Shown: positions 1,832 through 30,152 of the stretch, one piece after another | How the letters are laid out: each line of letters starts with the position of its first letter | Numbering within the stretch: the stretch's first letter is position 1 | Source: Campylobacterota bacterium | GTDB lineage: Bacteria > Campylobacterota > Campylobacteria > Campylobacterales > Sulfurimonadaceae | Direction of reading: 5' to 3' | DNA length: 35,634 bases | Assembly (NCBI GenBank): GCA_023379705.1 | Contig: JAMCPS010000083.1 | Coordinates: 1 to 35,634, forward strand | The notes under the pieces: generated by a model | Told to the model about the DNA's origin: nothing | The model's input: the letters and a program-made list of their open reading frames with translations, nothing else | Databases searched by the model: none | Translations under genes and position numbers: made by a program

Positions 1832-3433
1832 TCACAACTTTATGAGTGCATGTTTAACAAGTAGATCTGCTATTTCAAAGCTTGCATCGACAAACTCTAA
1901 TTCCGGAAGGTCTCTCATGCTTTTTCGCTCATCAGCACTGTCAATTTTGACAATTATATTAGCTTCTTTACTGTAACCAAGTACGGCTTCACTAATAAGT
2001 CGTCGGGTGTGTTCACTGCTCATGGTGATAATGATAGCTTTTGCCTCTTTCACCATCAATGACTCCAAAACAGGTAGTTTATTTAAGTGCCCGAAATAAG
2101 CCATGTATCCTAGTTTTCTGGCATGCAATACGTGCTTTAAATTATCGGAGATAATAATAAAATTTGCCCCTTTTGTCTGCAAAGAGGAGGCAACAATTTT
2201 ACCAAGAATCGCAAATCCGGCAACAATAATATGATCTTTGCGCTCTATGGGAGTGATGACGTCCGATTCGTAGTACTCTTTTTCGAAATAAGATGAAAGC
2301 TTATAAATATTTCCGATAATAAATGGGGTCAGAATCATCGATATCACACTCACAAGTATCAAAAAACTCGCCATTTCTTGCGATATAAGCTTATGCCCCC
2401 CTGCTAGGGTAAAAATAGCAAAGGAAAACTCGCCAATTTGAGCAAGTGCAAGTGCCGTTTTGGCCGAGGTGTTTTTATCGGAGTTTCTTCGTATAATGGC
2501 ATAAATTACGGCCGCTTTAAAGAGCATGGCAAAGATAAAGACAAACGTGATGATGTGTATGTTTTCAAGAAAATAGAACAGATCGATTTTAGTCCCCACA
2601 CCAAAGAAAAAGGCTCCAAGAAGCAGATCTTTATAACTGGCAATATCGGATTCCACTTTGACGTTGTAACGTGTATCCGCGATGATCATTCCTGCAATAA
2701 ACGCTCCCAGCGAATAGGTAAATCCCATGCTGTGTGCAAGAAGTGAAGCCCCGATAAGAATGGAGAATACCGAGCCTAAAAATAGCTCTTCAAGTTCTGC
2801 TTTTGCGGAGAACTGTAACAGTGCATTAACAATCTTGTCGCCTAACGTAAACATAAATACTACGACGAATACGGCTGATAGGAGAGTTTTAACAAGGACT
2901 TCACCAAGTGAGAGTGTGTCGTTGGATAAAAAAGTGATAAGGAGCAAAATAGGGATGACGGCAAGATCTTGAAAGATCAAAATTCCCATCGATTTTTGTC
3001 CATATGGAGTATGTATGTCTTTGGACTCTTTGAGATAGGTGAGCACAATGGCGGTAGATGAGAGGGAAAAAGCCAAAGAAATGATGAGGGATGTATTGAA
3101 ATTGAGCCCAAAAAGAGTATAAGAGAGAATGAAAATCACGACGACGCTGGAAATAACCTGCAATAGGCCGTTTGTAAGGAGAATCTCTTTCATCTTTTTG
3201 ATTTTGTCTAAACTCAGCTCAAGTCCGATGGTAAACATCAAAAAGACAATCCCAAATTCTCCGATCAAATCCAATGAATCATTTGAAAGTCCATTAAATC
3301 CAAAAAGAGTGCTGATAATGGTTCCTGTCGCAATATAACCGATGATATGCGATATCCCGAATCTTTTGAGGATGATGTTCAAAACTGTCGCAATTGAAAT
3401 GGTTAAAAAAATTGATAAAAGTAAGTTTTCCAT
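1832..3433 (-). CDS. CPA2-type monovalent cation:proton antiporter (KefB-like) with C-terminal TrkA-N/RCK domain
   Basis: Multi-TM exchanger sequence (GLELSLDKIKKMKE, GAFIAGMIIADTRY) followed by a Rossmann-like segment (HIIVAGFAILGKIVASSL). Confidence 0.88.
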   Translation of the reverse strand: MENLLLSIFLTISIATVLNIILKRFGISHIIGYIATGTIISTLFGFNGLSNDSLDLIGEFGIVFLMFTIGLELSLDKIKKMKEILLTNGLLQVISSVVVIFILSYTLFGLNFNTSLIISLAFSLSSTAIVLTYLKESKDIHTPYGQKSMGILIFQDLAVIPILLLITFLSNDTLSLGEVLVKTLLSAVFVVVFMFTLGDKIVNALLQFSAKAELEELFLGSVFSILIGASLLAHSMGFTYSLGAFIAGMIIADTRYNVKVESDIASYKDLLLGAFFFGVGTKIDLFYFLENIHIITFVFIFAMLFKAAVIYAIIRRNSDKNTSAKTALALAQIGEFSFAIFTLAGGHKLISQEMASFLILVSVISMILTPFIIGNIYKLSSYFEKEYYESDVITPIERKDHIIVAGFAILGKIVASSLQTKGANFIIISDNLKHVLHARKLGYMAYFGHLNKLPVLESLMVKEAKAIIITMSSEHTRRLISEAVLGYSKEANIIVKIDSADERKSMRDLPELEFVDASFEIADLLVKHALIKL

Positions 3434-3529
3434 ACGATAATTATAGTGTATTAGACCCTCTTATTGTATTTAAAATCTACACAAATACAGAAAAACTAAT
3501 AAGTTCCTTCTACTATATAAAGAGACTAA

Positions 3530-3720
3530 TTGTTCCAATGTTGTAGCACTCGAAAAATCTCTTGGTCGTAAACTAAATAGAGCAAGTTTGAAAGCTGCAA
3601 GCGAAGAACTTCTAAATGAAACTATCATCTTTATCAATCCATGAGGTTGGCTTTATGGAAAACGAGCACGAGAAATAGCTATTGATGTGGAGATGGCGTA
3701 AGATATTAAAAAGGTAAATT
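3530..3720 (+). pseudogene. Possible decayed coding remnant
   Basis: One frame reads VALEKSLGRKLNRASLKAASEELLNETIIFINP*GWLYGKRAREIAIDVEMA*, with a single in-frame stop; no intact ORF. Confidence 0.25.
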
Positions 3721-3853
3721 TAGTCCACTAATCATCTTTCAGATTTCCCATTGTTTTAAGAGCATTGATTGATATTAAAAGGCCACTTACTTTACAAAAG
3801 GTAGTATTTTTTATTTTTATATGGGTTTAAAAGCATTTAAAATAGGGGAATTT

Positions 3854-3867
3854 TTGGTGGGCTGTGC
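3854..3867. repeat. Candidate left attachment site (degenerate)
   Basis: TTGGTGGGCTGTGC against TTGGTGGAGCTGTGC at the tmRNA 3' end (one-base deletion). Confidence 0.4.
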
Positions 3868-3919
3868 TCAACTGCTTAACCCATATTTTGCGATGTTTAA
3901 AAGGTGTCTATATAAAAAA

Positions 3920-3940
3920 GGTACATTAAAAGGTACATTA
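3920..3940. repeat. Two direct GGTACATTA repeats at left edge of element
   Basis: GGTACATTA at 3920-3928 and 3932-3940, 12 bp periodicity; same motif at the right edge. Confidence 0.7.
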
Positions 3941-3950
3941 GGATTAAAGT

Positions 3951-4208
3951 CTACACAAAGTCTTTATCTTTTGTGAAGAGGCCAAAAAGGTTCTTGAATA
4001 AAAAAGCCTCAATAATAAAAACTGGGGCGATAAAAATCATCAAGACAAAACTCATAATCAAGCAAGCAATCGCGCTAAAAATGAATTCACCGAATACTCC
4101 GCTAAACAGACCTATTCCGTAGATTACGGTGGCATTAACAATAAACGTTAAATGGGTAAAAAACTCTTCGGAAGATGGGTTATTGTTCATAACAAAAGGA
4201 TAAAGCAA
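3951..4208 (-). CDS. Small membrane protein, unknown
   Basis: Multiple hydrophobic segments (IYGIGLFSGVFGEFIFSAIACLIMSFVLMIFIAPVFII); same strand as the element genes. Confidence 0.55.
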   Translation of the reverse strand: MLYPFVMNNNPSSEEFFTHLTFIVNATVIYGIGLFSGVFGEFIFSAIACLIMSFVLMIFIAPVFIIEAFLFKNLFGLFTKDKDFV

Positions 4209-4228
4209 ATGAGCTTAAAGGATGGGCG

Positions 4229-4251
4229 GACCGGATCATGATGATCCGGTC
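4229..4251. promoter_or_regulatory. 10-bp perfect inverted repeat, hairpin or operator
   Basis: GACCGGATCA-TGA-TGATCCGGTC in the gap between the 4259-4543 and 3951-4208 ORFs. Confidence 0.6.
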
Positions 4252-4258
4252 GGTGTCA

Positions 4259-4543
4259 TTATGCGGTTTTTGGGAGCATCTTTTTTAATATACCGACCTC
4301 AACTTGTGACTTTAGTTCGTACAATTCGTGTGTATCTTTCAAATAATCTCTGAAAGTGTCCAGAATATCTGTATATTTTTGAACAATGTGTTTATATCGG
4401 TCTTCCCATTCAGGGTTTTCTTTATCGTCAAATGTTACACCATCAACACACAAACATTCCGATTCAAATATATCATTATGCATAGATTCAAATACTTTTT
4501 TAATCTGCTCACTAGCCATTCGTGCTCTAAAATATTCACCCAT
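4259..4543 (-). CDS. Hypothetical protein
   Basis: 94 aa ORF with an SD-like GGAGAAAG upstream of ATG; ordered with neighbouring minus-strand genes. Confidence 0.55.
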   Translation of the reverse strand: MGEYFRARMASEQIKKVFESMHNDIFESECLCVDGVTFDDKENPEWEDRYKHIVQKYTDILDTFRDYLKDTHELYELKSQVEVGILKKMLPKTA

Positions 4544-4553
4544 TACTTTCTCC

Positions 4554-4859
4554 TTATGCAGCCATGCCGATACGCTCCAAGCGTTTCAGCATAAATTTTT
4601 CATCATCCATTAATGATAAGCTCCATGAAAGCATATCCCCGACACGATCAACATAGATAATTAGGTCTACACTCCCCGGTTGAATTACTCTTGATAGGAG
4701 GGGAAGATTTCTATCTTTCGACGATTGTCTATTGGTCATACTATCAATTTGTATAATCTCACATTCTGCAAAGGTGAGTTCCATATCTTCAAGGTCATTT
4801 ATAAAACGTTCTGATTCAAACGCCTGTTCTTTGATCGTTGCTATGCTTACTGGATCCAT
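4554..4859 (-). CDS. Hypothetical protein
   Basis: 101 aa ORF directly abutting the HTH gene (4860). Confidence 0.55.
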   Translation of the reverse strand: MDPVSIATIKEQAFESERFINDLEDMELTFAECEIIQIDSMTNRQSSKDRNLPLLSRVIQPGSVDLIIYVDRVGDMLSWSLSLMDDEKFMLKRLERIGMAA

Positions 4860-5054
4860 CTATTCCCCTTTGTAGTTTTTAACGATTTTGAGAGCATCAT
4901 CTAGCGTGATCTCCAACTCTTTTAATTTTGCCTCGCACTCAAACGATTTTTTGATCCTGGTGTAAAGCTCAGGCCGTTCCGTCTTCCATCGGCTGAATGT
5001 TACCGGGCTTATATCGATAGCGACGGCGATTTCTTTGTCTTTGATCTGTGCCAT
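4860..5054 (-). CDS. Small HTH DNA-binding protein, probable element regulator
   Basis: HTH-like IAVAIDISPVTFSRWKTERPELYTRIKKSFE; SD AAGGGG; palindromic operator-like site directly upstream. Confidence 0.6.
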   Translation of the reverse strand: MAQIKDKEIAVAIDISPVTFSRWKTERPELYTRIKKSFECEAKLKELEITLDDALKIVKNYKGE

Positions 5055-5065
5055 GTTTCCCCTTG

Positions 5066-5082
5066 GTTATCGCATTGATAAC
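5066..5082. promoter_or_regulatory. Operator-like palindrome
   Basis: GTTATC-gcatt-GATAAC, overlapping a second repeat ATAAC-gt-GTTAT (5078-5089), upstream of the HTH gene. Confidence 0.55.
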
Positions 5083-5207
5083 GTGTTATTGATATTCAGC
5101 TCAAATCTTAGCGATATTTTGCCGATATTGTCAAGAGTAAAATTATCTAATAGTTAACAAATAGTATAAAATATGCACTTTTTATACTTAAATTGTTAAT
5201 TAACTGT

Positions 5208-5352
5208 ATTGCTTAAGTTTACTTAGCAATATGATAATAATCTCTCGAAACTTAGAAAAGTTATTCACATATCGATAATTCTAGGCTGTCAATCTGTGAA
5301 TAGCGATATTTTTAAGGTTAAGTTTCCTTAATTGCTTAACAATACGATAATA
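5208..5352. repeat. Repeat-rich AT-rich intergenic region (candidate replication origin)
   Basis: Imperfect inverted repeat ATTGCTTAAG/CTTAGCAAT (5208-5230); TTAAGG/CCTTAA (5312-5331); near-identical direct repeats CAATATGATAATAA and CAATACGATAATAA. Confidence 0.4.
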
Positions 5353-5434
5353 AACTGCAAAAATAGCCCTTTTTGGTTAACATAATGTAGATTCTATTTA
5401 AAACGCACTTTGCAACCTTAAACGGCTAAAACGG

Positions 5435-5449
5435 TAATGATAGTCATTA
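5435..5449. promoter_or_regulatory. Fur-box-like palindrome
   Basis: TAATGA-TAG-TCATTA within GGTAATGATAGTCATTATA, close to the classical Fur consensus GATAATGATAATCATTATC. Confidence 0.35.
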
Positions 5450-5504
5450 TACTAATTCGGACTACCCCTATAGCTCCCCCGCTGAAATATGCTATACTTT
5501 TTTC

Positions 5505-5708
5505 ATGAACTGTGAAGCACTATTTAAACAAGCCTGGTCTATTGTCGAATGTATCCTTGGATTATTTGGCATAGTACTTCTTTCGATCATTGTTGCTTTA
5601 ATTGTCTCACTGATCGGGTTTGATAGCTCCTCGCCATATATCGGGGGCGGGTTCCTAATCTATGGAATTGCTACCGTGATCTTTAAATGTACTTCATCAA
5701 AGAAGTGA
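5505..5708 (+). CDS. Small hydrophobic (about two TM) protein
   Basis: 67 aa; extended -10 TGCTATACT ends 6 nt before the ATG; only rightward gene I can support in the element. Confidence 0.5.
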   Translation: MNCEALFKQAWSIVECILGLFGIVLLSIIVALIVSLIGFDSSSPYIGGGFLIYGIATVIFKCTSSKK

Positions 5709-6254
5709 TTTAACTCCGTAAATATTACTCACAGTTTCGGGACTCACTAATCTCCCGTGTAGCAATTCAACTACTTTTAACTCTGCTTTAGTGCTGCGGA
5801 ATTTACCGCCTGATATTTCATTGAGCAACGCTAAAAGGTCATTTGTGATCTCTATCACAGTCATATTTGCCTCATTCATGCCGGCAATATCACAGTCAAA
5901 CGTTTCCGCATCATCCTGATCCAATGCTCCTCTATCAAACATATCGGGGCGCATGATGGTGATCTGCTTCATCTCTGAAAGTAGGATGATTATTTGTTCC
6001 GGCGTTCGCTCATCCTTTGGTTTTGGTCGGTTACGTTCATTCGCTTCTCTTTGAGCATCACGGCTAGGGTCTTCCATCCCTCTGATTGCTTCTTTTGCTT
6101 CCTCGTACCTGTACCACCGTTTGGATGAATTAGGCTTAGGGTGATGAGGTATAAACCCGCCGTTTACCAATTGTATGAAATATGGAAGTTTGCCTTTGAA
6201 TACTCCGGCTTGCCTTAATTTGTTTACACACTCAGTCGCTGTGATAAGTTCCAT
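5697..6254 (-). CDS. Winged-helix/HTH protein, possibly small-terminase (Nu1)-like
   Basis: Start set at the internal ATG 6254 with SD AAGGA five nt upstream; N-terminal MELITATECVNKLRQ...FIPHHPKPNSSKRWYRYEEAKEAI looks like a wHTH; charged linker follows. Confidence 0.55.
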   Translation of the reverse strand: MELITATECVNKLRQAGVFKGKLPYFIQLVNGGFIPHHPKPNSSKRWYRYEEAKEAIRGMEDPSRDAQREANERNRPKPKDERTPEQIIILLSEMKQITIMRPDMFDRGALDQDDAETFDCDIAGMNEANMTVIEITNDLLALLNEISGGKFRSTKAELKVVELLHGRLVSPETVSNIYGVKSLL

Positions 6255-6374
6255 GAATTTCCTTTTGCATGAAATGTTTTCTAAAACTTCAGTAAACTTT
6301 GCCTTTTGGGTGATATTGTCATACACTACGTGTATGAGTGAATAACTCACAAAAGTTAAGCAAGTTCACGGGTC

Positions 6375-6437
6375 GAAAACTAGGCGTTTTCCGCGAGTCT
6401 TAAGCCCCGCACTGGGTCAAACCCTTAGGAGGACCCA
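6375..6437. other. Structured, locally GC-richer intergenic segment
   Basis: Hairpin GAAAAC-taggc-GTTTTC (6375-6391) and TGGGTC/GACCCA (6413-6437) between the recT and wHTH genes. Confidence 0.4.
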
Positions 6438-6445
6438 TAATATAT

Positions 6446-7276
6446 TTATGTGGTCTCGCTCTCTTGATCCGCTCCCTGCTTCGTCATTACCATAACGTTA
6501 AGGTCAACATCATAAGCGGGATCTGTCGTTAACTCTGCTTCAATTACCGCGCCTTCCTCAACGCTCTTACGGACATCAACGGCTTTGCCTTTCTCTGTCG
6601 CTTCGTCAATCGCTACTACGGTTTGCACACTGTCCCCAATAGGTAAACGTTTGATGTGCCGCTTTAACGCTGTCTTGATCGCCATCTCCTCGTACCAATC
6701 AAACCAAATGCTTGAAGGCTGTGCGCTTTGGTTCGGGCTTTTTTGTCTGATCTTCTCGATCTCTCCCACGCTCATGACGTTGTAAAATATTTCACCGTTT
6801 GGGGATTTGATCGCAGTAAACACCTTATCAAGGTTGCTTATCACCCACTTTGGGCTTTCGGTTTCTCTCGCGTCGTAATCGGGTTCATACTTGATGATCT
6901 CATCCCATCCGTTAAACTCGTAAGAGAATTCATCCGTACTGTAAACGGGAAACACTTTTGCCTTCCATCCTGCCCTATCCAATAGGACGTTATAGCCTCG
7001 CGCCCCGATCTGAAGCTGTGCCGCCCCTTTGTAAGGTACGATGTACACCTGCCCCAGATTCTTATCGATATTTAAATCCAGTTGCGCCGCTGCAACACAA
7101 CACCCGATAATACTCTCAGGAGTACATGCTGATAGGTTCCGATCTGAAGCAACCGCCAAAGCCGTCGCCATAAATCGATCTGATTTCCTTTTGTCCTGTA
7201 AGAGGCTTTGAAGCTGTTTTTGTACGCTTACAAGTCCGCGCTTTATTTCATCCGTTCGTGTCAATGCTGTTGCCAT
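6446..7276 (-). CDS. recT: RecT-family single-strand annealing recombinase
   Basis: Typical RecT pattern: QLQSLLQDKRKSDRFMATALAVASDRNLSACTPESIIGCCVAAAQLDLNIDKNLGQVYIVPYKGAAQLQIGARGY. Confidence 0.92.
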   Translation of the reverse strand: MATALTRTDEIKRGLVSVQKQLQSLLQDKRKSDRFMATALAVASDRNLSACTPESIIGCCVAAAQLDLNIDKNLGQVYIVPYKGAAQLQIGARGYNVLLDRAGWKAKVFPVYSTDEFSYEFNGWDEIIKYEPDYDARETESPKWVISNLDKVFTAIKSPNGEIFYNVMSVGEIEKIRQKSPNQSAQPSSIWFDWYEEMAIKTALKRHIKRLPIGDSVQTVVAIDEATEKGKAVDVRKSVEEGAVIEAELTTDPAYDVDLNVMVMTKQGADQESETT

Positions 7277-7286
7277 GTGATCCCCT

Positions 7287-8057
7287 TTATGATGCCCACT
7301 CGGGCAATGATATTTCTTTTACAATCTGAGCGCGTCCCGTTTCTAAAAAAGTGATGTACTCTTTTAAAAGCTGTTGATAATTCGCCCGGCCTTTATCGAT
7401 CGATGCCGTATCCAATTCCCTCACCCGTACCATGTACGGGGCTGATTTCTCCACGGTTACAAAAACAAACCGTTTCGCGGGTAGTCCTAAGAGTGTGAGG
7501 GTGTCGATGTACCATGCCGCTTGACGGTCATAGCGATACTCTGCTATTGATTTTGCAAAGCTGTAATCCATTCCGTCCCTGGTTGTTTTAATATCAATTA
7601 ATATTCCACTCTTTTGAATGTAATAATCCGGGCGGCACTTTCGGATAATGCCGTCTTCATCTTTAGCGAAATAACTCTGCTCCGCTTCACCGCCTTGAAG
7701 TAGTCCTCCCGCTATCATACGTACGTTTCTCGCCATCTTTATGGCTTGATCGTGTTCTGATGAGGTCAAGGCGCAACGCTCCCCTAAAGCCTCTAAAAAC
7801 GATTCATACGCTGCCTTTCCTTCTTTCGTATTCTTTGGGAGCTCGGGAGCGATTGCAAACTCTTGATCAAATGTATCCGGCTCTAAAATAAGCTTATGAA
7901 CTACCGATCCAAAATCAAACGTTTTACCGCCCAGGCTAAAGCACTCCCGGTTCTGAAAATGTAGCGGGCTTTCTGCCAATAGTGAAAAATGGCTGCTGCT
8001 GATACCATCGGCGGCGTGATATGCCGCGTTTGTCATCTCTTTGGGTGAATGTTTCAT
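7287..8057 (-). CDS. RecE-like PD-(D/E)XK exonuclease
   Basis: YHAADGISSSHFSLLAESPLHF..., FDFGSVVHKLILEP, CRPDYYIQKSGILIDIKTTRDG...YDRQAAWYIDT; adjacent to recT. Confidence 0.88.
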   Translation of the reverse strand: MKHSPKEMTNAAYHAADGISSSHFSLLAESPLHFQNRECFSLGGKTFDFGSVVHKLILEPDTFDQEFAIAPELPKNTKEGKAAYESFLEALGERCALTSSEHDQAIKMARNVRMIAGGLLQGGEAEQSYFAKDEDGIIRKCRPDYYIQKSGILIDIKTTRDGMDYSFAKSIAEYRYDRQAAWYIDTLTLLGLPAKRFVFVTVEKSAPYMVRVRELDTASIDKGRANYQQLLKEYITFLETGRAQIVKEISLPEWAS

Positions 8058-8359
8058 GATAGCCCCTCAAATTTCATGTCTTCGCGCATTTGGTCCGCGT
8101 TAATAATCGCCTCTGCCTCTTTGATATATTGATCGTATCGATCATCGAATAGGCTCTGCACTGCCTCGAATAGTGTTGTTTCTTTATCCTCAAAGCTGAT
8201 AAGATACGGTGTCAATTCGTTAATCTCTGCCTCTTTGAGATAATCCATCATCGCACTTAGGCTTCGTCTCGCTTCGTAAACGTCTATCGGGTCAATTTCC
8301 TGATCCATTGTGTTTCTTTCGTTGTAGTACTCCAACATCGTTTTATTTTCAGTGGCCAA
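8054..8359 (-). CDS. Hypothetical protein
   Basis: 101 aa acidic ORF overlapping the RecE-like start by 4 nt (ATGA coupling). Confidence 0.6.
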   Translation of the reverse strand: MATENKTMLEYYNERNTMDQEIDPIDVYEARRSLSAMMDYLKEAEINELTPYLISFEDKETTLFEAVQSLFDDRYDQYIKEAEAIINADQMREDMKFEGLS

Positions 8360-8384
8360 CTGATCTAAGCCCCCCGGTGGGAGC

Positions 8385-8663
8385 TCAAATCAATTCCGCT
8401 TCTTTTAATGCCTCTTGAACCTCATCAATACCATACGCAATAATTCCAATGCCTCCCGCTTCCTTGATCTTCTTAAGATGATGTTTTTGAAGCTCTGAAA
8501 CAATACCGCCGGGCTTTTTTACTTCAATCGCTAAAAAATGCCCCTTAAAGCAACAAAGCACGTCAGGGGTTCCCGATGTATTGGTAACAATAGTTTTTAC
8601 ACTGTATGCCCCTAATTTGATCAAATAAGCCATTATTTTTGTCTGTATGGTTTGCTCTTTCAT
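8385..8663 (-). CDS. VRR-NUC domain nuclease
   Basis: GTPDVLCCFKGHFLAIEVKKPGG catalytic pattern; small phage-type protein. Confidence 0.85.
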   Translation of the reverse strand: MKEQTIQTKIMAYLIKLGAYSVKTIVTNTSGTPDVLCCFKGHFLAIEVKKPGGIVSELQKHHLKKIKEAGGIGIIAYGIDEVQEALKEAELI

Positions 8664-9436
8664 TCTTTCCCCCCTAAAATTGTTTCTACCTGCTCCAATG
8701 ATTGAAAGCTAATCGTTGTTACGGCTCCATGATATTCGCCTTCCTTTCGCTCTCCTCGTACACTCAAAATTAATTTCCCGTCCAATGATTTCAAATCCTC
8801 AATCGTTCCGGTAATCTCTGTATCATTTACGATGATCGTCTTCATCTTTCCATAATGCTTCGATCTGATCGCACAGGTCTTGTATTCCGTCTCCCACTTC
8901 AGATAGTTTCTGATCGTTCCTTTATGGCCGCTCTCCATCTTCTCAATGATTGAAGCCTGGTATGCTTCAATGTTATTAATCTTTCTGCCTGCTGTAATCT
9001 CATAAAGGTATCTCTCTAAAAATTCAAAAGCAAAGCGTTCAGATTCTCTCTGATTACTTGTATGATCTGTTACTTGTGTGTCCTTCCCAGGTACAAGCCC
9101 TTGTACTTCTGAGGCACTACCCTTGTTTTTCTGAGGTACAAGGGTAAGACTGTATCTGCTGTACGTATGGCCGCCGTTACTTCCCTTTTGACGATGCTTA
9201 TGAATGATCTTTTTTTTCCTCAAAACTTCTAAAGTAGAAACTATTTTGTTTTTACTCAATCCTGAGAATTTAACCCATTGTGAGAGGCTGATCCCATCAC
9301 TCTTTTTTTTAAATAGCACCGTTTGTTTTAAGAGGATCATAACCATGACAAATTCATAGTGATCGATTGCCCTACATTCAAGCATTTCAAGGATCAATTT
9401 AGCGTCTTGAATGAATGTGTTATAATTGTCCTGCAT
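8660..9436 (-). CDS. Replication-type winged-helix protein (phage O/DnaD-like N-terminus)
   Basis: SLSQWVKFSGLSKNKIVSTLEVLRKKKIIHKHRQKGSNGGHTYSRYSL wHTH pattern; 4-nt overlap with the VRR-NUC gene. Confidence 0.55.
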   Translation of the reverse strand: MQDNYNTFIQDAKLILEMLECRAIDHYEFVMVMILLKQTVLFKKKSDGISLSQWVKFSGLSKNKIVSTLEVLRKKKIIHKHRQKGSNGGHTYSRYSLTLVPQKNKGSASEVQGLVPGKDTQVTDHTSNQRESERFAFEFLERYLYEITAGRKINNIEAYQASIIEKMESGHKGTIRNYLKWETEYKTCAIRSKHYGKMKTIIVNDTEITGTIEDLKSLDGKLILSVRGERKEGEYHGAVTTISFQSLEQVETILGGKE

Positions 9437-9465
9437 AATTTACTTAGCCCCTTATGCCTCGGGGG

Positions 9466-10644
9466 TTAACCCAAAAACATCCTCGCTGTAAAATCCTTAT
9501 GCTTTTGCCCCACTGCCTCAAATACTGCCTCGCTAACTGATCCACGGCTCATGATAATATGTACATTAATCGGCGTTGTCCGTTTCTTCGATGCTTGGCG
9601 TGCGTTGCGCTGCTGAAATCGTGCGGTACTGTAATCCATAGAGGCGATTATTAAATGCTCAATATGGCTCAATTCTACCCCCTCGGCGTGTGCGTGAGAG
9701 CTGAGGATCAAAGCGTTTTTAAACTCGGCTTCAAAGATTCTCCGCTGTCCTACCCATCGGGTCATAATTGCCACGTCCGGTGTATCGCCCCAGTGAGCTT
9801 TGATATAATCCATGATTTCGCGGTTTCCCTGGTCGATATAACCATCACCGATTTTTAGTGATCCGCACTCAATCTGATAAAGCCCGTTTACCACTTTGAG
9901 CGGCGTATCTGCGAAAAACTCCCCTAATACTCGGTGTCGTAAGAGGTAACGCATCCGGTCTTTTGTTTCCTCGTTTAATTCAACGTAATGCGGGACCATT
10001 ACCGGTTTATAATCAAACCCCGGTAAATCGTCGCGGGTGAGCTGAATAATATATGGCAGCACCTCATCCATCACCTTACGCGTAGCGTTTGAGTAATCAT
10101 TTACAACTATGCCTCTAAAGTTGTTCTGTCTAATATGAACATAACCGGCTTTCGCCCACTTGTAAAAGCTTTGATGCCTACTGAATGGATGTCCTGAGCA
10201 TAACCATAGCGGGTGAAACCATTGTGCCGGTGATTCGGGCGCGGGTGTTGCTGATATGAGTATCTTTGGTACGTCTCCCCATCGATCTTTTATGATCTGA
10301 GCTTTCGCCGGAGTTTTTGGAAATGAGCTGATAGCATAGTGGAATTCATCGGTTACGATGAGGTCGTAATCACCCTCATATTTGTGGATTGCTTCATAAT
10401 TCACTACGTCGTAATGCTTCACGGCTTCATAGAGCTTTAAATCGCCTTTGATCCCATCAATCGCCGCCTTTTTTGTGATCCACAAAGCCCGTTTAACGTC
10501 GGATAACTGTTCAACTGCATCGATAACACTTAATGTTTTCCCGCATCGCTCCGGAGCTTGTAGGATTGCAAAGCTGTGATCTGTAATCGATTGTTTGATA
10601 CGTGCCGATATCTTCCCTTGATGTGGGTAAAGCTCAACGGCCAT
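9466..10644 (-). CDS. SNF2/DEAD-like helicase of phage type
   Basis: LYPHQ, Walker-A-like APERCGKTLS, DEFHY motif, SATPAPES, QRNARQASKKRTTP. Start placed at ATG 10644, one nt after the AlpA-like stop. Confidence 0.75.
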   Translation of the reverse strand: MAVELYPHQGKISARIKQSITDHSFAILQAPERCGKTLSVIDAVEQLSDVKRALWITKKAAIDGIKGDLKLYEAVKHYDVVNYEAIHKYEGDYDLIVTDEFHYAISSFPKTPAKAQIIKDRWGDVPKILISATPAPESPAQWFHPLWLCSGHPFSRHQSFYKWAKAGYVHIRQNNFRGIVVNDYSNATRKVMDEVLPYIIQLTRDDLPGFDYKPVMVPHYVELNEETKDRMRYLLRHRVLGEFFADTPLKVVNGLYQIECGSLKIGDGYIDQGNREIMDYIKAHWGDTPDVAIMTRWVGQRRIFEAEFKNALILSSHAHAEGVELSHIEHLIIASMDYSTARFQQRNARQASKKRTTPINVHIIMSRGSVSEAVFEAVGQKHKDFTARMFLG

Positions 10645-10645
10645 G

Positions 10646-10819
10646 TTACGCCGCCGTAATTGCACGGGCGATAAACGCGTCTAATTCAGATTTTGCCCAA
10701 ACGGTTACCCGCTCGCTGAGTTTGATTGATTTAATTTTCCCTTGCTTAGTAAATAGCCAAAGCGTTGATCGTCCAATGCCCAAATATTGAGCGGCTGCTT
10801 TATCTCTAAGATGTTCCAT
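10646..10819 (-). CDS. AlpA-like HTH regulator/excisionase
   Basis: 57 aa, below the ORF-track cutoff: MEHLRDKAAAQYLGIGRSTLWLFTKQGKIKSIKLSERVTVWAKSELDAFIARAITAA; SD AAGGGG upstream. Confidence 0.82.
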   Translation of the reverse strand: MEHLRDKAAAQYLGIGRSTLWLFTKQGKIKSIKLSERVTVWAKSELDAFIARAITAA

Positions 10820-10919
10820 GATAGTTCCCCTTGATGTACTGCTTAAGATTGTTATATGGCAGTATATGGGGTTAGAGGGGATTGTAGTTAGTAGATTTTA
10901 AAAGTCAAATTTACTAATT

Positions 10920-11807
10920 TTATGCAGAAATTCCGGTCAAGAGTTCTTTATAACGTAGGTTATCGATGTAATCAATCATCATTTTTCGGCATAACCGTAT
11001 CGTGCTATCACTGAGATAATCGGCAGCGTCTTTGCCTTTGTATTTTCTCCACGTGCTGCCGTTGTTTCGGTGGTATTCATTTAGCTCGATTATGATCCCG
11101 GCAATAATTTCAAGGTCTGATTTAACCTCATCGTGCAATTTCCAATAGTCATAAATGAATAGCGCATCTGCCCAGTCTAAAGCTGACACCCCATTCTTTC
11201 TTTCAAAATTGCTTTCGTCAAATATTCCAACGATTGCCTCAAGTGGAGCTTTTACAACATCATGATAATCATCATACTGGTCTTTTATTCTCATGATATA
11301 TGCAACAAGCTCCCGCTTTGGTAGGGCAAGATTCAAATTACATATATCAACTGTTTTATCCATTTTTGGAGGAGCTCTTAGGATTGGTCTTGAGAATTTT
11401 TGAATGATACACGGCTTTGAAAAACCATCAAGCTCATCCTCAATATTAAGCCCATGTGACAATTTCACATTTTCAACCTCATTTTCAACCACAAAACCTT
11501 GATATATAATTCCGGGTTTATTGAACATTAATCTTCTGCTGACTTCTTTTTGAATTTCAACAAAACTCTTCAATTCATGCATCTTAAAAAAATGATATTG
11601 CAAATGCATATTTGGCAAGTCAATAGCTACTAGCTGATATTCTTCAAGCATAAAAGGATCATTAATATTTTTTATTCTATATTTGATTATATTAACAACC
11701 TCATCATTCCTAATTGCCATTTCATAAGCTATGCAACTCGTAAACTCATATTCCTCAAACGTCTCTACGTCGAGATACTGCTTTAAATCTCTGGTGAGCT
11801 CAATCAT
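10920..11807 (-). CDS. Hypothetical protein coupled to integrase
   Basis: 295 aa; start overlaps the integrase stop by 4 nt; no domain recognised. Confidence 0.65.
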   Translation of the reverse strand: MIELTRDLKQYLDVETFEEYEFTSCIAYEMAIRNDEVVNIIKYRIKNINDPFMLEEYQLVAIDLPNMHLQYHFFKMHELKSFVEIQKEVSRRLMFNKPGIIYQGFVVENEVENVKLSHGLNIEDELDGFSKPCIIQKFSRPILRAPPKMDKTVDICNLNLALPKRELVAYIMRIKDQYDDYHDVVKAPLEAIVGIFDESNFERKNGVSALDWADALFIYDYWKLHDEVKSDLEIIAGIIIELNEYHRNNGSTWRKYKGKDAADYLSDSTIRLCRKMMIDYIDNLRYKELLTGISA

Positions 11808-13102
11808 TGCTTTGCCACTTTCACCTCATCGAGATAATCCGCCCACCATTGCAATAATTCCCGCATCTGTTCGGTGTAATCGGCTTTGTGGGTGTAGGCT
11901 CTCACTACCTTGTTTCCCTCTTGATGATCGAGTACCGATTCCATTGTCTCAAAGGTTGCCCCGTGCTCTTTGTGGTGTGTTCGTGCCAAACTTGCAAAAG
12001 TACCCCTAAAACTGTGCAAAGTTTGTTTACGTCCGTTTACCTCATCATTGAAACCCATCCGCCCTAGTGCCCTACTTCCACTCTCTTTGTTTATGTGGTT
12101 TTTTATACTCCTTGAACCATGAAATACCCACTTGCCCCACCCCGTGATCTCTTTAATTTCTTTTAGAATTGCTATTGCTTGATGTGGAAGCGGTAATACA
12201 AAATCGGGTAGGTTTTTATTTTTGACTTTCATCTCTGATCGGGGTATCGTGAGAATCGCTTTCTCAAAATCGACTTGCTCCCATTTCAACTTACAAAGGT
12301 TATCTGCGCGTAATGGCAGCAAGGTGACAAAGCGTAAAAGATTACGGACGATTACGCCCCCGTCACCTTTATACACGTCAATAGCTCTTAACAGTTCACC
12401 TAATATTTTTGCATCGGTGATTTTTGGTAAATTTGTTTTTTCTCCCTTTGGTACGTTGCTTTTATCTATTTTATGGGTTATGTTTATATCGAGATAGTCG
12501 TGACTCACTGCATACGTCCACAAACGGTTACAATCCGTAAATAGCCTGCTTGCCGTTTCGGGTGTAGCTTCTCCCTTTTTGGTGATGATCTTCAAGAGTT
12601 CCCCGTGGGTGATTTCGCTTATCTGTTTTGATGAGGTGATAATATGGTTTTCGTCATACGTACAAAAAGAGGGAAATATGTCGCGCTCAAAAGCTCTCTT
12701 TCGCTTTGTAGCTGTTACTTCGGCACTCTTAAGGGTAGATAGCCATTCGTAGGTGATGAGGTGAAATTGAGTGGTTAATGTGGTTTGTGCTTCCATCTCT
12801 TTTTCTTGGATGATAGCTTTGATCTCTTTTTTCTCTTTGATCGGGTCGATACCGTTGATAACTTTGCTTTTGAGTTCGTCTCGCTTGGCTCTTGCTTTTG
12901 CAAGGGTTACGGCGGGGTAAGTTCCGCCCGTGGTCTTTTTAGCTTTGCCATCAATCGTGTAGCGTATCTCCCAAACTTTCCGCCCGTCGGGTTTGATATT
13001 GAGCTGTAATCCGTTCCCGTCGGATATAGTGTACTCTTTGTCTTTTGGCTTAGCGTTCTTGATTTCGGTATCGGTGAGCGGGGTTATTTTCTTATTCGCC
13101 AT
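11804..13102 (-). CDS. int: P4-type tyrosine integrase (DUF4102-type N-terminus)
   Basis: LTDTEIKNAKPKDKEYTISDGNGLQLNIKPDGRKVWEIRYTIDGKAKKTTGGTYPAVTLAKAR; C-terminal LHSFRGTFASLA...VLDHQEGNKVVRAYTH. Confidence 0.95.
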   Translation of the reverse strand: MANKKITPLTDTEIKNAKPKDKEYTISDGNGLQLNIKPDGRKVWEIRYTIDGKAKKTTGGTYPAVTLAKARAKRDELKSKVINGIDPIKEKKEIKAIIQEKEMEAQTTLTTQFHLITYEWLSTLKSAEVTATKRKRAFERDIFPSFCTYDENHIITSSKQISEITHGELLKIITKKGEATPETASRLFTDCNRLWTYAVSHDYLDINITHKIDKSNVPKGEKTNLPKITDAKILGELLRAIDVYKGDGGVIVRNLLRFVTLLPLRADNLCKLKWEQVDFEKAILTIPRSEMKVKNKNLPDFVLPLPHQAIAILKEIKEITGWGKWVFHGSRSIKNHINKESGSRALGRMGFNDEVNGRKQTLHSFRGTFASLARTHHKEHGATFETMESVLDHQEGNKVVRAYTHKADYTEQMRELLQWWADYLDEVKVAKQ

Positions 13103-13104
13103 TA

Positions 13105-13180
13105 TGTACCTCTGAAATATGTACCTTTTTTAGGTATCTGATGAGGTACATTATAAGAAGGTACGTTTAAAGGTACATTA
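13105..13180. repeat. GGTACATTA repeats at the right edge/integrase promoter region
   Basis: GGTACATTA at 13145-13153 and 13172-13180, variant GGTACGTTT at 13160-13168, inverted TGTACC at 13105-13110 and 13120-13125. Confidence 0.7.
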
Positions 13181-13302
13181 AAAACTTAGATTGTATTAAA
13201 TGGAATAAGTGCGTACTAGATGCTAAATAGTGGTAAAAGTGCCTATTTAAGGGGTTTTTGTTGGTTGATTTAGAGTGTATTAGAGGGGATTGAATTGTAC
13301 TT

Positions 13303-13674
13303 TGGTGGAGCTGTGCGGAATCGAACCGCAGTCCGAAAACGGGGCACCAGAGGCGTCTACATGCTTAGAGACGTTGTTTGAATTTCAGACGACTATCGCA
13401 CAACGTGCAAAGCTACATCGCCCAATTCTCTAAATTCGTTCCTGTTCGAGACATTCCAAGAATATAGCTACCGCGGGGGTTATACTCCAATTCCATTCGG
13501 TGATAGCATAGAATGGCAGAGCAGTCCTAAATTAAATTAAAACTTACGCTACAGCGTAAGCAGGACGGTAATTAGTATTGTTTGCGTTTAAGCAAGTGTG
13601 AGCCGTATAACGGAGGTGCTCAGTCCGGCATGCAACCTAAAGCATCCCGCTCCCGTCGAAGCCATGTCAGCCCC
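13303..13674 (-). ncRNA. ssrA: tmRNA
   Basis: 5' GGGGCTGACATGGCTTCGAC; 3' GGTTCGATTCCGCACAGCTCCACCA; tag frame GCAAACAATACTAATTACCGTCCTGCTTACGCTGTAGCGTAA (ANNTNYRPAYAVA*) at 13544-13585. Confidence 0.97.
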
Positions 13675-27548: not shown

Positions 27549-30152
27549 TCAATAATTTAAAACTTTACTCACGATTTCATTGACATTATTGGAGAGATTT
27601 GGATGATTTTTAATCCTCTCCAACGCACTTCCCATTTTCCCTTTTTGAATTGGGCAAAGTTTCTCATAACTTTTGAAGGCACCTGCAAGGCCGGAAGCTA
27701 TTTGAGGGTTAAAACCATCTACTTCGATGATTTTATCAGCAACAAAATCGTATCCGTTACCGCTTATTTCATGAAATGCGACTGGATTACGTGCAAAGGA
27801 TCCGATGAGAGCGCGAACCAAATTTGGAACTTTCTTATCAAATGCTTTATCTTCTTGCAATGCAATCACCCGTTGCAACGTCCCCTCACGTCGTGAAGAT
27901 GCCAAAAGGGAAAAATATTTGTTCATCACCAATGTATTGTCATCATGACGCTCGTAAAAATGTGCAAAAGCCTCTTTTGACAAATCGGGCGCATAATTTT
28001 CAAGCAAATCGAGCATTGCTAAACGATCTGTCATACTCTGAGATTCATCATAATAGCGTTTACACAAAGATGCACACACCTCATCACCCAAACTCATCCA
28101 CAACGAAAGCAACCGATTTTTAAGTGCCCGCTTCCCCATACTCATCGCGTCGATTGAACTGTTGCCAGGTTCATAGAGTTCATGAACTTGTCTCTCAATG
28201 CTCTTTGCAAAGCGGCTTGCAAGGGTCGCTTTTAATTTTTCAAGTGCCTGATGGATGGCTTGAACATCAATAACCTCTTGAAACTGCATCATCATCGATA
28301 ATGTCGGTAACTCTAAAAGCTGTGCTTTGTACATTCTCTCTATGGTGGTATCTTCGAGAATCTTTCCATACGCATTTACATATGCGACACTGGGCTCCTC
28401 TCCATCCATCATCGATTGCAGCGTTACTATGGCAAACTGCTGTGCCGCTTCATAACGGACAAATCCATCCGTATCGTAGGCCATCAAGAATGAGTAGTCG
28501 ATTTCACTGCACTCTATGCGTACGGGAGCACTAAAGTTACGGTTAAGTGATAGTTTCGGTGCTTCGCTGATATTTTCAAACACCAGATCGTTAACCTGCT
28601 TATCTATCCATACCACTCCATCACGCAAAATCATAGCATTGTCACTTTTAAGTTCATACTCACGACCCTTGGAATCCAAAAGTCCAATTCCAAAGGGCAT
28701 GGCATAAGGAAGCTGTTCTTGATTATGAACATTTTTGGGAACTTTTTGGGTGATACTAAGCGTAAGCGTCTGGGCTTTAGGGTCATAGTTGCTCGAGATA
28801 CAGAGTGTCGGCGTGCGCTCTTGGCAATACCACCGCTTGAACTGCGTCAAATCGATGGAGCTTTCTTGCTGCATTGCCCATAAGAATTCCTCTGTTCCTA
28901 CGGCTTGACCGTCAAAGTTTTCAAAATAACGATCCGTAGCACGGCGAAATCCCTCTACCCCTAAAAGCGTATGAAGCATCCGTATCACTTCAGCACCCTT
29001 CTCATAGACCGTGGCAGTGTAAAAGTTATTGATCTCAATGTACGAGGCCGGTTTAATCGGATGAGCCGTGGGACCCGCATCCTCAACATACTGACGTTCG
29101 CGCAGTGAGCGTACATCATCCAAACGCTGGATGAGCTGTGAGTTCATGTCCGCACTGAAACATTGATCTCTAAATACCGTCAGACCCTCTTTGAGCGTGA
29201 GTTCAAACCAGTTGCGGCACGTAATGCGGTTTCCCGTCCAGTTATGAAAATACTCATGAGCAATCACGCTCTCTATTCCCATAAAGTCCCCATCGGTTGC
29301 ACTGTGCTCATCGGCAAGAACATAGTGGGAGTTAAAAATATTCAGCCCCTTGTTCTCCATAGCCCCCATGTTAAAACTGTCAACCGCGACGATGTTATAG
29401 ACCTCCAAATCGTACTCACGCCCATATACCTCTTCATCCCACGTCATCGACTTTTTTAAGGACCTCATCGCGTGGTGGCACTTGTTCTCATTGCCCTTGT
29501 CACAATAGATCGCTAATGCCACCTCTTTGCCGCTCATCGTGACAAAGGTATCGTGAATGCTCCCCAAATCTCCTGCTACAAGAGCAAAGAGATAAGCAGG
29601 TTTAGGGATGGGATCTTCCCATACAGCGATGTGTTTGCCGTTTTCAAGTGTTGCCGTTCCGCGCAAATTTCCGTTGCTTAGTATTATGGGGCAATCTTTT
29701 GCAGAAGCGATAATCTTCGTTGTAAAACGCGTCATCACATCAGGACGATCTAGAAAATAGGTAATACGGCGAAACCCCTCAGGCTCGTTTTGAGTACACC
29801 AGATACCTCCTGAACGATACAATCCCTCCAATGCGGTATTTTCATCAGGATAGATACGGGTGATGACGCGTATACGCGCTTCTTCCATATCCATAGGGAT
29901 AATCAGGCCATCTTCTTGGAGTGTGTACATGCTCTCATCGTACAAAGCATCATTGACCCATAACAGTTCTAAATCCAACATCTCACCATCCAAGCGTATC
30001 TCTTTTGCCTGAGGATTTTGACGTCTGATTTCCATGATGTTATCCACACGCGTAGAACTGTTTTCAACAATAAATTCGAGCTGGCATGTCGTTATTGTAT
30101 AGTCGCTACGCTGGTAATCATTAAAAAATATCGTTTGAAGGGTACTCATCAT
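27549..30152 (-). CDS. pepN: Aminopeptidase N (M1 family)
   Basis: GAMENKGLNIFN; VIAHEYFHNWTGNRITCRNWFELTLKEGLTVFRDQ; TVYEKGAEVIRMLHTLLG. Confidence 0.96.
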   Translation of the reverse strand: MMSTLQTIFFNDYQRSDYTITTCQLEFIVENSSTRVDNIMEIRRQNPQAKEIRLDGEMLDLELLWVNDALYDESMYTLQEDGLIIPMDMEEARIRVITRIYPDENTALEGLYRSGGIWCTQNEPEGFRRITYFLDRPDVMTRFTTKIIASAKDCPIILSNGNLRGTATLENGKHIAVWEDPIPKPAYLFALVAGDLGSIHDTFVTMSGKEVALAIYCDKGNENKCHHAMRSLKKSMTWDEEVYGREYDLEVYNIVAVDSFNMGAMENKGLNIFNSHYVLADEHSATDGDFMGIESVIAHEYFHNWTGNRITCRNWFELTLKEGLTVFRDQCFSADMNSQLIQRLDDVRSLRERQYVEDAGPTAHPIKPASYIEINNFYTATVYEKGAEVIRMLHTLLGVEGFRRATDRYFENFDGQAVGTEEFLWAMQQESSIDLTQFKRWYCQERTPTLCISSNYDPKAQTLTLSITQKVPKNVHNQEQLPYAMPFGIGLLDSKGREYELKSDNAMILRDGVVWIDKQVNDLVFENISEAPKLSLNRNFSAPVRIECSEIDYSFLMAYDTDGFVRYEAAQQFAIVTLQSMMDGEEPSVAYVNAYGKILEDTTIERMYKAQLLELPTLSMMMQFQEVIDVQAIHQALEKLKATLASRFAKSIERQVHELYEPGNSSIDAMSMGKRALKNRLLSLWMSLGDEVCASLCKRYYDESQSMTDRLAMLDLLENYAPDLSKEAFAHFYERHDDNTLVMNKYFSLLASSRREGTLQRVIALQEDKAFDKKVPNLVRALIGSFARNPVAFHEISGNGYDFVADKIIEVDGFNPQIASGLAGAFKSYEKLCPIQKGKMGSALERIKNHPNLSNNVNEIVSKVLNY

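Follow-up and report, generated by a model that had tools for sequence, protein, structure and literature searches.

In the present study, an island of about 9.4 kb, integrated at the 3' end of the transfer-messenger RNA (tmRNA, ssrA) gene of a Sulfuricurvum-type bacterium, is most probably (about 0.86) a phage satellite of the phage-inducible chromosomal island (PICI) or phage-inducible chromosomal minimalist island (PICMI) type, and would represent a previously unnamed Campylobacterota family. The window, that is, the whole stretch of 35.6 kb (35,634 nucleotides) analysed herein, is the complete contig C83 (GenBank JAMCPS010000083.1) of a 2.3-Mb assembly (GCA_023379705.1); the island occupies about positions 3853-13302, and Sulfuricurvum genes were observed in both flanks. 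We infer that the element depends on a helper phage.

Gene content of the island

First, the open reading frames (ORFs) of the island were compared with Pfam and PHROGs, and defence genes were sought with PADLOC. All proposed ORFs except one are read leftward. On the minus strand, these include a tyrosine integrase with an Arm-DNA-bind_3 domain (11804..13102; PF13356, PF22022 and PF00589); ORF295 (10920..11807), whose coordinates overlap int by 4 bp (ATGA), in the position of the PICMI gene iolg (PMC10803314); an AlpA-type excisionase/regulator (10646..10819; PF05930 and PF12728, above cut-off); a phage-type superfamily 2 (SF2) helicase (9466..10665; phrog_62, E=6e-31); an O-like winged-helix replication initiator (8660..9436; PF04492 Phage_rep_O, E=1.6e-7; phrog_678); a stand-alone VRR-NUC nuclease (8385..8663; PF08774; phrog_93, E=1e-21); a RecE-like exonuclease of the DUF3799 PD-(D/E)XK type (7287..8057; PF12684, E=1.5e-27; phrog_412 exonuclease VIII, E=1e-66); and a RecT-family annealing protein (6446..7276; PF03837, E=4e-31; phrog_148). 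Thus, the integrase, AlpA, helicase, replication-type winged-helix, VRR-NUC, RecE-like and RecT genes that a sequence-only reading of this DNA had placed at the tmRNA gene are all confirmed by family matches. The same reading had described the island as free of structural, lysis and conjugation genes, and this also held: in Pfam and PHROGs, no island ORF matched the TerL, portal, capsid, tail or lysis families that mark a temperate prophage, or the relaxase/conjugation families that mark an integrative conjugative or mobilisable element. No primase domain was found in any island ORF with these databases, the O-like initiator being present instead, and no convincing defence gene was reported by PADLOC.

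Related islands in three families

Second, the same core was observed in other hosts (labels beginning with G denote genomes, and those beginning with L denote the loci compared). Searches of IMG/VR and genome contigs with the helicase and RecT gave no close relatives, and the members of the family were found by whole-genome searches. The order hel-repO-VRR-RecE-RecT is present in five islands from three Campylobacterota families, namely that of the window and four others (L308, L312, L324 and L370) belonging to two families other than that of the window; the fuller common order is int-orf-alpA-hel-repO-VRR-RecE-RecT-(TerS/HTH64). The helicase, which is the hallmark gene of the family, is 63-65% identical between the window and L308, L312 or L370, and 36% identical to that of the Nitratiruptor phage NrS-1. 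L308 (8.2 kb) lies at ssrA in the complete genome of Nitratifractor salsuginis with perfect 17-bp attachment (att) repeats, and L312 (8.9 kb) lies in tRNA-Leu and is bounded by a perfect repeat of 28 bp; both have the order int-orf-alpA-hel-repO-VRR-RecE-RecT-HTH64-orf-ORF217. L324 and L370 are cut by contig ends, so that no integrase is seen in either and alpA is incomplete in L324, and wherever two ends are on the contig, as in the window, L308 and L312, att repeats bound the island. Between L312 and L324, the ratio of nonsynonymous to synonymous substitution rates (dN/dS) is 0.09-0.22 for hel, vrr, recE, recT and terS, indicating maintained genes and not debris. These results support the earlier proposal of a Campylobacterota satellite family carrying its own annealing-recombination module, consistent with the att bounds, the lack of virion genes and the empty sites of sister genomes described below.

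A temperate-phage remnant, mobile no longer, in which the late genes had been lost but the early region had survived along with cos and a portion of terS, would account for some of this gene content, as Campylobacterota temperate phages (NrS-1, NrS-4 and prophages L181-L184) typically have RecE/RecT, helicase and VRR-NUC among their early genes and the cos-TerS arrangement is derived from phage. However, the same reduced layout, with intact genes under purifying selection, is found in three host families and at several target sites, and two of the islands have exact att repeats. Moreover, AlpA beside an inward-pointing int is a satellite signature, observed in 203 of 203 fis satellite models compared with 1 of 169 prophages (PMC10111431), and the satellites differ from the phages in the C-termini of TerS and in having an origin-like element that was not seen in the phages. 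A remnant is thus unlikely, and the island is better described as a satellite.

The distal part of the layout varies. In the window, the gene ORF217 is flanked by RecT and HTH64, and in L308, L312 and L324 it comes after HTH64. The place that it has in the window is taken in L370 by a Terminase_4 small subunit (E=5e-14), and no site was found in that island by the cos model described below. In the same genome as L370, a further island (L371:3926-13728, G249:C3) carries int and the same helicase and VRR-NUC, together with AlpA-like, primase-type and AAA_25 (RepA-like) genes, and has a cos site (E=1e-5) after VRR-NUC but neither terS nor RecE/RecT; this island ends at tRNA-Pro, at least 24 bp of which is repeated beside int. 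The content of L370 and L371 suggests that the packaging part has been swapped, presumably according to the type of helper. The integration site varies as well. The expectation that the gene order would recur at ssrA and be absent from sister strains was borne out for the order, seen in four more islands, and for the empty sites, but ssrA is not fixed: it was rejected as the family-defining site because tRNA-Leu is used in L312 and L324, and tRNA-Met adjoins L370.

Other candidates were not accepted as members. The RecE/RecT relatives examined elsewhere in Sulfuricurvum and in its family lie in ordinary prophages. Of the distant helicase relatives in the host family of L308, L327-L329 have phage gene neighbourhoods and L325 and L326 are on short contigs, and none was taken as a satellite. 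Other Sulfuricurvum ssrA elements (G070, G074 and G082) share int, AlpA or origin-like DNA without the RecE/RecT core, and no convincing match to the cos model was found in G070 or G074. The sister element in G070 (L158/L068), of about 6.8 kb at ssrA, has an 88% identical integrase, AlpA, an O-like gene, HTH64, an origin-like region and a second integrase gene inside, with no cos-model match. In the ssrA element L152 (G074:C2), a 34% identical integrase and AlpA are accompanied by genes for a primase-like protein and a helicase-type ATPase, the latter followed downstream by an origin-like motif. In L069 (Sulfuricurvum STA_91), a 79% identical integrase and AlpA occur with a replication gene of the ATPase type, and a toxin-antitoxin pair resembling RelE/ParE is close by.

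The cos site and the TerS-like protein

Third, a non-coding element shared by phages and satellites was found by comparing the DNA upstream of their terS genes; in most of them it immediately precedes terS. A sequence-only covariance-tool model (R1), made from five phage copies and no satellite copies, was searched over 30 loci (0.49 Mb) and gave exactly one site each in the window (E=3e-12), L308 (7e-9), L312 (2e-8) and L324 (2e-6); the further matches were the five training phages and phages L332 and L313, and nothing beyond these phages and satellites was matched up to E=10. With filters off, no second site appeared in the window, the next best having E=0.38. Over whole genomes, the model found one site each in G000, G464 and G605. 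In the host assembly, the site of the window is the only one (E=1.5e-11). The genome of N. salsuginis has exactly two, that of the satellite and that of a resident prophage, and these share GCGGGGCTCGCGAACCCCGGAAAA. The element was also present at E<1e-3 in 18 of the 21 IMG/VR virome loci retrieved by the TerS-like query. A blastn search of the element against phage records found nothing, whereas the covariance-tool model did work.

The 12-nt 5' cohesive ends of Sulfurimonas phage SNW-1 have been placed at 27,921-27,932 by a PhageTerm prediction from reads (PMC11290706). This read-mapped overhang falls within the element, and the distance from GGGTCCT to cosN is equal in SNW-1 and the window, which indicates that the element is a cohesive-end (cos) site. 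In the window, the predicted site lies at 6340..6438 on the minus strand, just upstream of ORF217, and the predicted cosN 12-mer, GGGCTTAAGACT, at 6396-6407; that of the N. salsuginis island is predicted to be GGGCTCGCGAAC. The position directly upstream of terS would equally fit a shared promoter or leader, but this explanation is very unlikely in view of the cohesive end mapped inside the element, its place about 1.2 kb upstream of terS in phage L313 (11150-11253, with small ORFs between) and its occurrence in satellite L371 after VRR-NUC without any terS. In prophage L309 (G251:C1:1777000-1796900; also IMG/VR L339), the cos core is identical over 24 nt to that of the N. salsuginis satellite, and this prophage is a likely candidate for the helper of that satellite.

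ORF217 (5697..6254, minus strand; 185 aa from the ATG at 6254, its most likely start) had been left as a plain unknown, and this description is corrected herein: the protein carries the DNA-binding domain of the small terminase found next to lambda-type TerL in Campylobacterota phages, joined to a satellite-specific C-terminus. Searched over 399 genomes of the host order, ORF217 gave two kinds of match, namely the satellite islands L308 and L312 and, in Campylobacterota prophages (L309-L311 and L313-L315), the gene that immediately precedes that of a GpA-type large terminase. The small terminases of these prophages match the small-terminase family phrog_57 (4 of 4 scanned), and their large-terminase neighbours match GpA_ATPase/GpA_nuclease (3 of 3 scanned). 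Residues ~20-113 of ORF217 are 48-60% identical to the TerL-adjacent small terminases of the closest phages, and hhalign aligned satellite with phage TerS at 99.8% (E=5e-30) over the first 81 columns only. An AlphaFold model of ORF217 alone was discarded (pLDDT 38), and a search with a profile built from the TerS set gave no match to a solved structure. Terminase homologues among the uncharacterised ORFs had earlier been named as grounds for rejecting the satellite proposal, and one was indeed found, in the form of a small-terminase DNA-binding domain. A TerS domain and a cos site without TerL strengthen the case for a satellite, because PICIs are built in that way, with a terS homologue or cos packaging part and no TerL (PMC6092414).

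The TerS-like protein may be a redirecting adaptor for the helper terminase, at somewhat less than even odds, and the same strength applies to a decoy or interference factor. A purely anti-phage role also belongs to another explanation, in which the island is moved by a conjugative element or generalised transduction and the TerS-like part only occupies phage terminase or cos; the predicted DNA binding, kept without the phage TerS C-terminus, is what such a decoy would show. However, no relaxase gene was found with Pfam or PHROGs, a cos site in cis is needless for a decoy protein, and L371 has cos without a TerS-like gene, whereas L370 has a Terminase_4 TerS instead. Transfer of this kind is thus highly improbable, and a satellite packaged by its helper is preferred.

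Integration site and candidate origin

The tmRNA gene (13303..13674, minus strand) was identified by ARAGORN and Rfam RF00023. The attL core (13301-13316) is at its 3' end, and the 3'-end sequence GCACAGCTCCACCAAA recurs at the other end of the island as attR, a tmRNA 3'-end remnant, TTTGGTGGGCTGTGC (3853..3867, plus strand), by an alignment with one gap. The score of this repeat was matched by 6 of 500 shuffles and is alone only suggestive, but the att reading is backed by an empty-type junction in G048, in which the 63 bp directly after tmRNA match the sequence outside the island of the window at 89%. In G076, the lipoprotein and HDOD genes, which in the window are on the far side of the island, lie 0.56 kb past tmRNA, and the distance from tmRNA to the lipoprotein gene is 0.3-1.5 kb in G049, G080 and G053. 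The ssrA site is empty in sister genomes. Two tandem arm-type sites, AAAGGTACATTA, are inside the right end (3917..3940, plus strand) and a third copy is inside the int end (13169-13180), giving three exact copies in the window compared with 0.18 expected; the G070 element has similar repeats at its two ends. Integrases related to that of the window are found at ssrA in G070 (88%) and G082 (70%), showing that the site has been used repeatedly. Between attR and a Kef-type antiporter gene (3433-3853), degraded-looking coding fragments were seen; the antiporter is absent at this position in the relatives examined, and the segment may be a second, older insertion.

A conserved non-coding region (5060..5500, minus strand) upstream of HTH64 is a candidate origin. 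Its 21-mer GAATCTACATTATGTTAACCA (5374-5394) is identical in the window, L308 and L312, has three mismatches in L324, G070 and G074, and was found nowhere else in 4.2 Mb of loci at up to three mismatches. Boxes of TGTGAATAAC recur in the region, as at 5260-5269. HTH64 itself (4860..5054, minus strand) encodes a small conserved helix-turn-helix (HTH) regulator, CII-like (phrog_725, E=5.8e-5), 52-59% identical in L308, L312, L324, L370 and the G070 sister element.

Proposed mechanism

Herein, we propose a scheme for how such a satellite might exploit its helper. A lambda-type (5' cos) helper phage would induce the satellite through AlpA-controlled excision; AlpA is the activator of PICIs (PMC6092414) and is required for PICMI excision (PMC10803314). 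The O-like protein would recruit host DnaB/DnaG to replicate the excised satellite, and RecE/RecT together with VRR-NUC and the helicase would turn monomers into linear concatemers. Satellite cos would be cut by the helper terminase, which the TerS-like protein may redirect, and helper-sized heads would be filled with about four satellite copies. About four 9.4-kb copies correspond to a head of 37-38 kb, and both SNW-1 and the IMG/VR contig that represents the N. salsuginis prophage are of this size. Concatemers are needed by GpA-type terminases, which generate 5' cos ends, and RecE/RecT pairs anneal linear DNA molecules and join them. The TerS-like protein would serve either as a redirecting adaptor or as a decoy that also holds back the helper. 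The identity of the island as a satellite has much better support than either the formation of concatemers by RecE/RecT, for which the chances are about even, or any particular function of the TerS-like protein. Tentatively, and at less than even odds, we suggest that the satellite makes its own concatemers with RecE/RecT, independently of the replication mode of the helper, and that a chimeric adaptor, in which a phage small-terminase DNA-binding domain is joined to a satellite-specific domain, steers the helper terminase to satellite cos. We know of no such mode of packaging hijack from PICI, P4, PICI-like elements (PLE) or PICMI.

Several points weigh against describing the island as a mobile satellite. 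Its excision, induction and transfer are deduced from sequence; the base missing from attR means that excision may be imperfect; and the window is a single contig of a metagenome-assembled genome (MAG), the host assembly being 99.9% complete with 7.9% contamination. The C-terminus of the satellite TerS-like protein cannot be aligned with phage small terminases, leaving TerL binding unsupported, and the absence of a GpA-type TerL from the host assembly implies that no helper of lambda type is resident there. The shared read-mapped cos site nevertheless ties the satellite to a type of helper, and the cultured type strain of N. salsuginis, with a satellite and a prophage of matching cos, makes the relation between parasite and helper testable in one strain. 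These results also raise the question of why a satellite brings its own recombination machinery, presumably to obtain packageable concatemers.

Remaining ORFs

On the minus strand, ORF101a (8054..8359) is without a significant family match, ORF101b (4554..4859) is without a Pfam/PHROG family, ORF94 (4259..4543) is without a significant Pfam/PHROG family, and the hydrophobic ORF85 (3951..4208) is without a Pfam/PHROG/PADLOC match. The sole plus-strand ORF proposed in the island (5505..5708, from the ORF listing) would encode a small membrane protein of 67 aa, and its 3' end overlaps the 3' end of the TerS-like gene.

Comparison with known systems

The layout had been regarded as not standard for satellites, and this view is consistent with a literature search in which no RecE/RecT-carrying phage satellite was found; in titles and abstracts, no Campylobacterota phage satellite was found either, such absences not being proof. 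The island and its relatives are probably a new family of phage parasites. Its early genes resemble the early regions of Nitratiruptor phages, with helicase and VRR-NUC in NrS-1 and RecE and RecT in NrS-4; however, these are complete phages, and the proteins are only 33-49% identical. P4-like satellites (PMC8628076) also combine int, AlpA and replication genes without virion genes, but no homologues of psu, delta, sid, epsilon or alpha were found in the island with Pfam or PHROGs, and the island is therefore not P4. PICMIs of Vibrionaceae (PMC10803314) are likewise minimal satellites, with int and a gene overlapping by 4 bp followed by alpA, and without capsid-remodelling genes. In contrast, a DUF3987/DUF5906 primase and a fis site are required in PICMIs, whereas the present family uses ssrA/tRNA sites and has no primase, so that the island is not a PICMI; it also has its own recombination genes, cos and a TerS-like gene, and concatemer packaging, shown for PICMI, is only inferred for the island. 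Compared with Gram-negative PICIs of the EcCICFT073 type (PMC6092414), the island has an O-like initiator, an SF2 helicase, VRR-NUC and RecE/RecT and no primase (pri/rep) gene, occurs in Campylobacterota hosts and has a TerS-like protein with a non-phage C-terminus; as it lacks the primase by which PICIs are defined, the island is not a standard member of that group. Several other features of these PICIs are shared, including an integrase with AlpA, replication genes in one direction, no structural or lysis genes, a size of about 10 kb and a specific, variably occupied att site. Moreover, PICIs are packaged through helper cos (EcCICFT073) or a TerS homologue, and the island likewise has a predicted cos site and a TerS domain.

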